From contig SUUM01000006.1 of the NCBI GenBank assembly GCA_015062525.1, positions 1 through 55,265 of the forward strand: a stretch of 55,265 nt of DNA, given 5' to 3'. The stretch comes from Alphaproteobacteria bacterium. Lineage in GTDB: Bacteria > Pseudomonadota > Alphaproteobacteria > Rs-D84. The notes beneath the pieces were generated by a model. That model was not told the DNA's origin. It did no database searches and was given only the letters and a program-made list of their open reading frames with translations. Position numbers and translations under genes: made by a program. Below are positions 16,312 through 18,540 of the stretch, piece by piece. Each line of letters begins with the position of its first letter. The first letter of the stretch is position 1.

Positions 16312-16340
16312 TTGATTTTGTTCTGTTATGTTGGTAATAT
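16312..16340 (+). promoter_or_regulatory. Promoter for the structured RNA
   Basis: TTGATT (16312-16317), 17-base spacer, TAATAT (16335-16340). The predicted transcript would run through the hairpins below. Confidence 0.5.
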
Positions 16341-16346
16341 GTTTCC

Positions 16347-16553
16347 GTCGTGATGTGTTATCATGATGGGGTGTGATAGCCCGAGCCAACGCATTAAAGT
16401 AAAATACGCATAGAAGTGCGTTTTTATGGCGATGAAAGAAAAGAACTCCTGACTTTATTTGGTCAGGAGGGTTGCGAATATATTGAATAAGCACACAATT
16501 CGTTGGATTGCTATCAACCTCCTGACCGCTTTGATATCAACGCGGTTTTTTAT
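16347..16553 (+). ncRNA. Structured RNA with competing hairpins, C4-antisense-like
   Basis: This 320-base gap before the glycine-rich gene holds ordered structure. Segment 1 (CTCCTGAC, 16446-16453) pairs with 16462-16469. The same second segment (GGTCAGGAGGGTTG, 16461-16474) pairs better with 16515-16527 (13 pairs, one bulge). That third segment overlaps the left arm of a terminator, ACCGC/GCGGT (16525-16546), followed by TTTTTT. A short reading frame MAMKEKNS (16426-16452) ends inside segment 1. The layout is that of an attenuator. The overall pattern also recalls, from memory, the C4 antisense RNA class of phages P1/P7 and prophages; this needs a covariance search. An earlier hairpin (ACGCA/TGCGT, 16406-16421) ends in five T. 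Confidence 0.55.
16525..16553 (+). terminator. Intrinsic terminator at end of structured RNA
   Basis: ACCGC/GCGGT stem enclosing the palindrome TTGATATCAA, followed by TTTTTTATT. It lies about 20 bases before the glycine-rich gene's start, so readthrough may control that gene. Confidence 0.65.
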
Positions 16554-16573
16554 TAATGCAAATGGGGGGATTT

Positions 16574-17575
16574 ATGCCGGCAATACATATTAATAATGTT
16601 GAAATTCAGGTGTATGAACAGCAATATACATCGCCAACCTTGCACGTGCAAAATACCGATGGAAAAATATACCACGCAATTGTTATCCCCCAGGGTGGCG
16701 AACTGTTTGATGCCTCGGAAAAACTGGTATATTCAGAAAATTCAATCAACACATGTCAACCGGTCACATTGGATGCGGGAATGTATCGCGTGGAATTGCG
16801 TGGTGGCGGGGGTGGTAAACAATCGCGGTGCGATCAGGGAACGGGTACCACAAGATTTGTTGGTAACCCAGTATCCAATTATTTTAAATTACCCACACAA
16901 ACAACCGTATATGCGTTTCGTGGTGGTGATGGTAATGACAGTCCCACGGTGACAGCTTATCAGATTCCGGGTGGTGGCGCATCGGGTGTGGACAGCATGC
17001 TGGTTATCGGGGACCGTGCAATTGTTGGTATCGGCGCACCATCGTCACAGTGTTTTAAATTAAATGCACGAGCATATCCTGGTGGAGGATCAGGAGTAGG
17101 ATTATATTGTCAATCCACACCATCTGGAACATATTCTATACAAAATATTAAGATAGGCGATTCTCATGTGGTCAGTAATAGATTTGGCTGCGGTGCTGGT
17201 GGCGGGGGTGCGCCAAATGGCGTTGGTGGTGCGGCGGTTTCATACATAAACGTTAAAATAACCGCTGGCACCAATGCGACATCTGATGGGGGTGGTAATG
17301 GTGGTGATGCGGAAAACCTGATGGGGGATTCACAAACAAAAAATCTGGGGATTGGTGGCATTGGTGGCAAAAACGTATATTGGCAATGTGCCGGTCACAC
17401 GGCGGTATCGTATGGTGGGGGTGGCGGTGGCGCCACATGCGCCCTTGCTGTCCCCAGCTCCTGCGAAAGCGGAGGTTCATGGTGTTATTCCGATTGCGCC
17501 GATGGTGGTAATGGTGCATCGGGCAGTACCGGCACATCAGACACCAGTTACGTTAAAATATATAAAATAGGATAA
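16574..17575 (+). CDS. Glycine-rich protein 1 (paralog family)
   Basis: The 333-residue product is rich in glycine, with runs such as RVELRGGGGG, GAGGGGAPNG and YGGGGGG and several cysteines. The N-terminal motif DGKIYHAI and the end motif GTSDTSYVKIYKIG are shared with the two paralogs (17581 and 54319). The pattern resembles glycine-rich domains of surface or phage-tail-type proteins. No convincing signal peptide is seen at this start; the ATG at 16574 is chosen for GGGGGGA just upstream, and an ATG at 16556 is in frame. The middle (about 155-215) differs from its paralogs. Surface adhesion or interaction is inference. Confidence 0.7.
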   Translation: MPAIHINNVEIQVYEQQYTSPTLHVQNTDGKIYHAIVIPQGGELFDASEKLVYSENSINTCQPVTLDAGMYRVELRGGGGGKQSRCDQGTGTTRFVGNPVSNYFKLPTQTTVYAFRGGDGNDSPTVTAYQIPGGGASGVDSMLVIGDRAIVGIGAPSSQCFKLNARAYPGGGSGVGLYCQSTPSGTYSIQNIKIGDSHVVSNRFGCGAGGGGAPNGVGGAAVSYINVKITAGTNATSDGGGNGGDAENLMGDSQTKNLGIGGIGGKNVYWQCAGHTAVSYGGGGGGATCALAVPSSCESGGSWCYSDCADGGNGASGSTGTSDTSYVKIYKIG

Positions 17576-17580
17576 TCATC

Positions 17581-18540
17581 ATGTTATTACCGTTGGCGTT
17601 ATTATCGGCATTATATTTTAAAACATCGGATGGTAATATTTATCATACCATTGATAAAATACCGGATGGCATGTGCATATTAAACAATAACGGCACGGAA
17701 TTGGTGTACGAAGCAACCAATTTTAACACCTGTAACGAAATTGTATTACAACCTGGATGTTATCGTGCGGAACTACGCGGTGGTATTGGATTACAAAATG
17801 AACGTTGTCTGGATGTTGTGGCACAAGACATAATTGAAACCGTATCCGCGATATTCAATATAAACGAACCAACCACGGTATATGTATTCCGTGGTGGCGA
17901 TGGGAATGCGGGTGGGGTAAATGTTGTAAATAACAAAACCGGTGCGTTTGGTGGTGGTGCATCGGGTGTGGACAGCATGCTGGTTGTTGGCGACCGTGTA
18001 TGGCGGGCATCGGGTGGCGCGGGGGCCAGTTGTGTTATGCCAATGTATTCTTATGTTAATATGGATACAGGCGGTTATGCTGGTGGGATTGGAATTGGTG
18101 GTGATTTTGACGATGTTTCGTTGAATCAGTGGCGGATTTATCAACATCAAAATAATTACAGGATATATGCTACCGCCGGCGGTGGCGGCGCATCACCAAA
18201 TGGGGCCGGCGGTACAGACTGGAAATATCATCACGATTTTATCAATGGTGATGAATACGTAAATGCCGGCACCAATGGCACAGATGAACGCGGTGGTAAC
18301 GGTGGTGATATTTATGTATGTAAAGATTTTTCCTGTACAACCATGGTGGCCGCCACGGGTGGCATTGGCGGCGCAACCGTTACATATGAATGTGGTGGCC
18401 AAACCGCAAAAACATATGGTGGTGGCGGCGGGGGCGGGGCATACTCTGGAGACTACTCAACCGCCGTCAACGGTGGTAATGGTGGTTCCGGCAGCAGTGG
18501 CACCAGTGATGTTTCGTTTGTACGAATTTATAAAATTTAA
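17581..18540 (+). CDS. Glycine-rich protein 2 (paralog family)
   Basis: The 319-residue product starts with a short hydrophobic stretch (MLLPLALLSALYF) that may be a weak signal. DGNIYHTIDKIPDG, ELVYEATNFNTCNEIVLQPG, VYVFRGGDGNAGG and GGGASGVDSMLVVGDRVWRASGG follow. The second half has GGGGASPNGAGGTDW, NAGTNGTDERGGNGGD and YGGGGGGG, and ends in VSFVRIYKI. It is nearly identical to the paralog at 54319 except in a middle stretch (about 147-198). It lies five bases after glycine-rich gene 1, probably in one operon. Confidence 0.75.
   Translation: MLLPLALLSALYFKTSDGNIYHTIDKIPDGMCILNNNGTELVYEATNFNTCNEIVLQPGCYRAELRGGIGLQNERCLDVVAQDIIETVSAIFNINEPTTVYVFRGGDGNAGGVNVVNNKTGAFGGGASGVDSMLVVGDRVWRASGGAGASCVMPMYSYVNMDTGGYAGGIGIGGDFDDVSLNQWRIYQHQNNYRIYATAGGGGASPNGAGGTDWKYHHDFINGDEYVNAGTNGTDERGGNGGDIYVCKDFSCTTMVAATGGIGGATVTYECGGQTAKTYGGGGGGGAYSGDYSTAVNGGNGGSGSSGTSDVSFVRIYKI

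Follow-up and report, generated by a model that had tools for sequence, protein, structure and literature searches.

Most of what is known about phage antisense immunity RNAs concerns their control of antirepressor genes. Phage P1 is annotated with the order a1, b1, c4, a2, b2, icd, ant, and its leader matches the Rfam family c4-a1b1 and, weakly, isrK. In one account, C4 consists of a stem plus two hairpins and undergoes RNase P processing at GGW; the account also reports C4-like "Group 1" sRNAs in Acinetobacter baumannii that are processed and expressed (PMC5320573). Annotations for C4, isrK and a further RNA, sRNA-Xcc1, lie no more than 400 nt apart in Xylella (PMC12189769), and in Xanthomonas sRNA-Xcc1 is carried by integron cassettes, where it lies upstream of symE (PMC12444791). 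Here we describe an RNA of this kind from the order Rs-D84, to which Candidatus Enterousia and its relatives belong and whose genomes are near 1 Mb (PMC12306168).

We analyzed a 55,265-nt stretch of alphaproteobacterial DNA (contig SUUM01000006.1 of assembly GCA_015062525.1; hereafter the window). A 217-nt RNA region sits between rplS and a pair of glycine-rich genes. Its minimum free energy (MFE) fold reaches -72.7 kcal/mol, compared to -50.0 ± 3.8 kcal/mol for shuffled sequences (z = -6.1; 0/200). All features described below lie on the forward strand. A putative sigma-70 promoter can be read from the sequence at 16312-16340, with TTGATT at 16312-16317, a 17-nt spacer and TAATAT at 16335-16340; it was not among the calls of our promoter scan. 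A TATAAT-like hexamer (5 of 6 bases) is found upstream of 94% of the copies of this RNA and in 66% of shuffles, which is weak evidence for a promoter.

The MFE fold of the window RNA opens with a 5' leader hairpin (16345-16369), and the other copies in this genome likewise open with a hairpin, though of different sequence. Next come leader segment a (16370-16380), which resembles a1 of phage P1 and is complementary to 16510-16519, and leader segment b (CCAACG, 16386-16391), which resembles b1 and is complementary to CGTTGG at 16501-16506 in the region of the P3 loop. These long-range pairings, of 16374-16380 with 16510-16516 and of 16386-16391 with 16501-16506, are both conserved among copies and had been overlooked in a preliminary description of the locus. 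The same fold places a variable hairpin in the leader at 16399-16427 that is specific to some copies: L003 and L004 have none and L002 and L005 have a short one. The leader also contains segment 1 (CTCCTGAC, 16446-16453), which mimics the 3' arm of stem P1 and pairs perfectly with segment 2 at 16462-16469.

Segment 2 (16461-16470), whose first bases are GGT, is the 5' arm of a C4-like stem P1. It is perfectly complementary to segment 3, the 3' arm at 16518-16527, and the helix can be extended to 16515 with one bulged G. Between the arms lie hairpin P2 (16473-16493), whose loop GAATATATTGAATAA (16476-16490) is near-invariant in an alignment of 68 copies, hairpin P3 (16496-16510), whose loop b' (16501-16505) is variable, and segment a' (16510-16519), which is complementary to leader segment a and adjoins segment 3. 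An intrinsic terminator follows at 16524-16551 in the MFE fold, with its hairpin at 16524-16547 and a T tract at 16546-16551. It overlaps P1, since ACC at 16525-16527 belongs both to segment 3 and to the left arm of the terminator, and it ends about 23 nt upstream of the ATG at 16574. That ATG begins glycine-rich gene 1 (16574-17575), which is preceded by a ribosome-binding site (GGGGGG, 16564-16569); glycine-rich gene 2 (17581-18540) gave a weak Pfam match to Gly_rich_2 (17.4 bits, cut-off 24.3).

The preliminary description had claimed that three segments pair in two mutually exclusive ways, the last overlapping a terminator arm, and had called for a search for covariation in homologs. The pairings are exact in the window, the overlap consists of the shared ACC, and both folds are conserved among the 193 distinct copies that we parsed into leader, core and terminator. 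In fold A, segment 1 pairs with segment 2 and the terminator forms. Its helices show 97.6% pairing, 11 of 16 pairs (a count that includes P2) have two-sided changes, and the covariation of segments 1:2, P2 and the terminator stem in 64 copies is 0.376, compared to 0.159 in shuffled alignments. The segment 1:2 helix taken separately is 96.3% paired and has two-sided changes, and the terminator helix is 98.7% paired (64 copies each). Where segments 2 and 3 have become GGTTGGAG and CTCCAACC, segment 1 has become CTCCAACC as well. In fold B, which consists of P1 (segments 2:3), P2 and P3, 95.7% of positions are paired and covariation is 0.271 versus 0.120 shuffled (0/500; 68 sequences). Within these 68 copies the P2 stem is 90% paired with two-sided changes in all four pairs, and P3 is 93.6% paired and covarying. 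The first nine pairs of P1 are 90-99% paired in the 193 copies, although P1 pair counts lean towards structure because the 68-copy alignment was restricted to copies in which no fewer than 8 of the 9 P1 pairs form, and because the copies are related. Pair 9 of P1 exchanges G-C, T-A and A-T among the 193 copies, and this pair is out of the reach of segment 1 and therefore supports P1 independently.

As in attenuators that use an intrinsic terminator, the terminator and antiterminator are mutually exclusive and both helices are conserved. In 165 of 192 copies a T run comes directly after the core, and the terminator state is the more stable one in 176 of 191 copies, by a mean difference of 10.7 kcal/mol. 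The first three bases of P1 are GGT in 163 of 192 copies, and RCY comes after P1 in 143 of 192, a sequence that would permit 5' processing by RNase P at GGW.

The pairing between leader and core is specific to each copy. We compared the eight bases before segment 3 (a') with the 75-nt leader of the same copy, and in 84% of 192 copies that leader held a complement with seven or more of the eight bases matching, compared to 8.3% with swapped leaders and 3.7% with shuffled leaders. Similarly, a 6-mer from the P3 loop has a perfect complement in the copy's own leader in 82.6% of cases and in swapped leaders in 9.0%, and 167 different P3 loops occur among 190 copies. The leader-core duplex has an energy of -17.9 kcal/mol with the own leader versus -11.6 kcal/mol with swapped ones. 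Two copies in the window's genome, C13:35218 and C9:108000, both stand upstream of the same HTH gene; the stretch running from segment 1 through the terminator differs between them only by two substitutions in a', each of which is compensated in leader segment a. In genome G009, which has many copies, 25 of 40 copies find their best partner in their own leader, so cross-talk is possible and insulation is incomplete in silico. Some copies in the full set are without a good match in their own leader, and 24 of 192 are without a nearby ORF. Five tandem copies lie at G009:C3:144096-145351, several of them with no obvious gene behind; some pair better with the leaders of other copies than with their own and are possibly trans-acting orphans.

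BLAST found four further copies in the window's own genome, and covariance models raised the number to at least eight in all. Model R1, built from five own-genome copies, gave eight own-genome matches at E below 1e-6, and the core model R2 gave the same number. Among relatives, R1 matched 37 of 59 genomes; the positive genomes that belong to the genus carry 2 to 43 copies each, and six genomes representing other orders of the class gave no match to R1. R2 matched 165 of 190 sampled genomes of the order (relatives of Candidatus Enterousia) at E of 1e-4 or better, the E-values of covariance models being rough; where 27 matches are listed for a genome in this search, it has at least 27 copies. 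Family-wide, a genome of about 1 Mb carries 1 to 43 copies. Among named records, an exact-pattern scan found gut, rumen and termite alphaproteobacterial MAGs, Candidatus Enterousia among them. We considered a phage-borne origin of the present copies and rejected it, as the exact core pattern occurred in only three IMG/VR contigs; one of these has clear tail genes, yet its RNA precedes a secreted-protein gene. Near one own-genome copy (L012, 13788-16166; about 105-108 kb on G000:C8) phage-head-like genes, scaffold and major capsid, were recognized by eye. Separately, CTAAACTTTTATTT and a longer repeat occur upstream of several RNA copies and glycine-rich cassettes (L002, L004, L005 and L008; 18565-18935 in the window). 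Six near matches to CTAAACTTTTATTT are present in the window where 0.04 are expected, and the repeat is possibly the edge of a mobile unit.

The family usually stands directly before a gene. An ORF starts within 80 nt downstream in 168 of 192 copies, the median distance from RNA to start codon being 20 nt, and the copies that we examined are single and lie amid housekeeping genes. Among 164 distinct downstream proteins, 87 begin with a signal-peptide-like sequence, and a loose pattern classes about 51 as small and HTH-like; Pfam HTH_3 confirmed one of the small HTH proteins with a score barely over the cut-off. Judged from position, the glycine-rich genes of the window are likely to be under the control of the window RNA. 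The glycine-rich pair and its 5' UTR (21 identical bp; 16560-16580 in the window) occur at eight places in the genome, and the R1 model matches just one of these eight loci. Upstream of the three other glycine-rich loci that we read (L006, L007 and L008) is not a window-type RNA but a segment of about 110 bp with two palindromes of about 30 bp (ACTATAAAACAAACGTTGGTTTGTTTTATAGT) at its ends, mutually inverted. This segment is a candidate operator pair or invertible promoter, and it has the same orientation in all three loci.

The preliminary description had likened the RNA to C4, and database comparison placed it at some distance from that family. The window has no match to Rfam C4 (RF01695) at the gathering cut-off of 45 bits or at E up to 10, nor does the window copy match any Rfam family at gathering level, sRNA-Xcc1 (RF02221, cut-off 53 bits) included. 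Two sibling copies match sRNA-Xcc1 over its full length with 37.9 and 36.8 bits, below the cut-off of 53 (E = 3e-5; 0.004-0.008 in a pooled scan). A divergent copy in the same genome, which precedes another secreted-protein gene, matches RF02221 at E = 4.6e-5, again below the cut-off. Conversely, R2 finds sRNA-Xcc1 loci of other Pseudomonadota, with a best E of 6.5e-8, and homology is thus detectable in both directions. By these scores the core of the window family is a distant homologue of sRNA-Xcc1. The divergent own-genome copy L025 (G000:C15:62244-62369) has an sRNA-Xcc1-like P2 with an apical hairpin inserted in its loop and lies before a long secreted-protein gene; it bridges the window family and sRNA-Xcc1. 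The likeness to C4 therefore stood as regards architecture, which matches that of phage P1, and through the homology of the core to sRNA-Xcc1, but not as membership of Rfam C4.

Together, these comparisons make it probable that the window RNA is a copy of a family descended from C4 or sRNA-Xcc1 that was rebuilt as a transcription attenuator acting in cis. The basis for this reading is the homology of the core, both sets of pairings, their copy specificity, the overlap of terminator and P1, and the position before genes. We infer that one fold serves as the OFF state and the other as the ON state. Transcription would start just upstream of the leader, whose elements a, b and segment 1 are antisense to the C4-like core. 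Pairing of leader with core (a:a', b:b' and 1:2) would block P1 and let the terminator form, and transcription would then end some 20 nt short of the gene. With the leader occupied, removed or slow, the core would instead fold into P1, P2 and P3, P1 would sequester the left terminator arm, and transcription would continue into the gene. Because the terminator fold is more stable in nearly all copies, termination is the likely default; the stability gap by itself predicts near-constant termination, and some trigger would therefore be needed. Our guesses are a mature core RNA that acts on the leader in trans, cleavage by RNase P at the initial GGT of P1, or recognition of the near-invariant P2 loop by a protein. 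The preliminary description had offered a domesticated phage-type RNA or an attenuator, and both ideas survive, so that its interpretation is partly supported overall.

Other accounts of the same element have to be weighed against cis attenuation. It may be mainly a trans-acting sRNA like C4 and sRNA-Xcc1, with the terminator ending the sRNA, the leader pairing serving as negative autoregulation or as a decoy, and the gene expressed through leaky read-through. The core is homologous to sRNAs, the GGT start and RCY are reminiscent of the GGW RNase P site given for C4 in PMC5320573, and tandem copies without intervening genes exist in G009. We nonetheless consider this unlikely: the downstream a2/b2 target typical of C4 and sRNA-Xcc1 is absent (with a' as the query, 6.4% of copies versus 4.8% by chance), and a simple sRNA would have no need for a terminator that overlaps P1 in nearly all copies or for a start codon at a median of 20 nt. 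Alternatively, the P2 loop could sense a protein or ligand, with the leader pairing as the expression platform. The loop (GAAUA..AAUAA) is indeed nearly invariant on a covarying stem and recurs in sRNA-Xcc1, but an identical loop in phage sRNA-Xcc1 before antirepressors may mean that it is a structural motif only. The downstream genes are also too diverse for one metabolite, and a common sensor would not need leader codes that differ from copy to copy, which makes a sensing attenuator quite improbable.

Control by ribosomes was part of the preliminary description, which pointed to a nine-codon frame ending inside segment 1 and to an AGGAGG site. The frame is present in the window at 16426-16452, but such frames occur in 5.7% of copies compared to 8.3% of shuffled leaders, and we rejected leader-peptide attenuation because the frame is not conserved across copies. 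GGAGG is conserved as part of P1, and no conserved start codon was seen at a usable distance from it. Ribosome-controlled attenuation by either route is thus very hard to credit. We give still less weight to the idea that the hairpins are attC-like recombination sites acting as DNA. The presence of sRNA-Xcc1 upstream of symE in integron cassettes of Xanthomonas (PMC12444791) would favor it, but the copies are scattered on both strands rather than in a single array, and the terminator, RNA-type pairs including G-U, and leader code are all conserved.

In this order of genome-reduced gut Alphaproteobacteria, one lineage of phage antisense immunity RNAs has become a common leader, with dozens of copies in about 1 Mb, a rearranged terminator, and pairing codes that vary from copy to copy. 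It would thereby be a major layer of regulation for bacteria whose genomes are very small, and would provide a natural set of cases in which to study the evolution of orthogonal RNA codes. The attenuator logic is a prediction that can be tested by reporter. More speculatively, and with considerable doubt on our part, a phage immunity RNA may have multiplied into genome-wide switches with private antisense codes that sustain themselves through the mature core, such that surface proteins vary by RNA memory and not by DNA inversion.

Among known RNAs, DUF3800-VI (RF02915) has a similar two-hairpin fold and weakly matches the window core (16460-16528, 20.1 bits), but this score is far under the 35-bit cut-off and no DUF3800 gene was seen. 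An earlier example of numerous C4-like RNAs within a single genome is given by the "Group 1" sRNAs of A. baumannii: they too are phage-derived copies with variable target-recognition loops, but their description, in the part of the source available, has no terminator that overlaps P1 before a gene (PMC5320573). The resemblance to C4 of phages P1 and P7 (RF01695; c4-a1b1, RF03163) extends to the order a1, b1, C4 core, to the outer stem P1 with two hairpins, which covary in 68 copies of the window family, and to the pairing of b1 with the P3 loop and of a1 with the adjoining junction. Upstream a1/b1 complements are present in 84% and 83% of window-family copies versus 8-9% with swapped leaders. 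Strict membership of Rfam C4 was rejected, as the window has no match to RF01695 and the core model does not find C4 of phage P1. Moreover, phage P1 has a2/b2 at the icd ribosome-binding site, whereas the window family is without them.

With sRNA-Xcc1 the window family shares a P1 stem that encloses P2 (GAAUA..AAUAA loop) and a variable P3, and an upstream leader complement, which is found in 80% of 30 sRNA-Xcc1 loci and 84% of window-family copies. The T run is in the leader in 23 of those 30 loci and after the core in 1 of 30, whereas it follows the core in 165 of 192 window-family copies; a downstream target is present in 40% of the 30 loci but only at chance level in the window family. The sRNA-Xcc1 arrangement of a terminator in the leader plus a downstream target is therefore not that of the window family. 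Several of the 30 loci stand before phage antirepressor-like genes (KilA-N/BRO-N type, by eye), while the genes of the window family are mostly for secreted or small HTH proteins. By eye, the leader terminator arm CCGC of the sRNA-Xcc1 loci (L223-L252) could pair with GCGG beside b1, which suggests a second attenuator controlled by C4-type RNA binding. Our comparison also suggests a second look at whether sRNA-Xcc1 serves antirepressor genes as an immunity leader RNA. In the window family the terminator has shifted to a place after the core, in overlap with P1, and the downstream target has been lost, so that the antisense module is built like an attenuator. The window RNA is thus neither a member of Rfam C4 nor a plain sRNA-Xcc1 but a variant of that kind, greatly multiplied and placed on non-phage genes.
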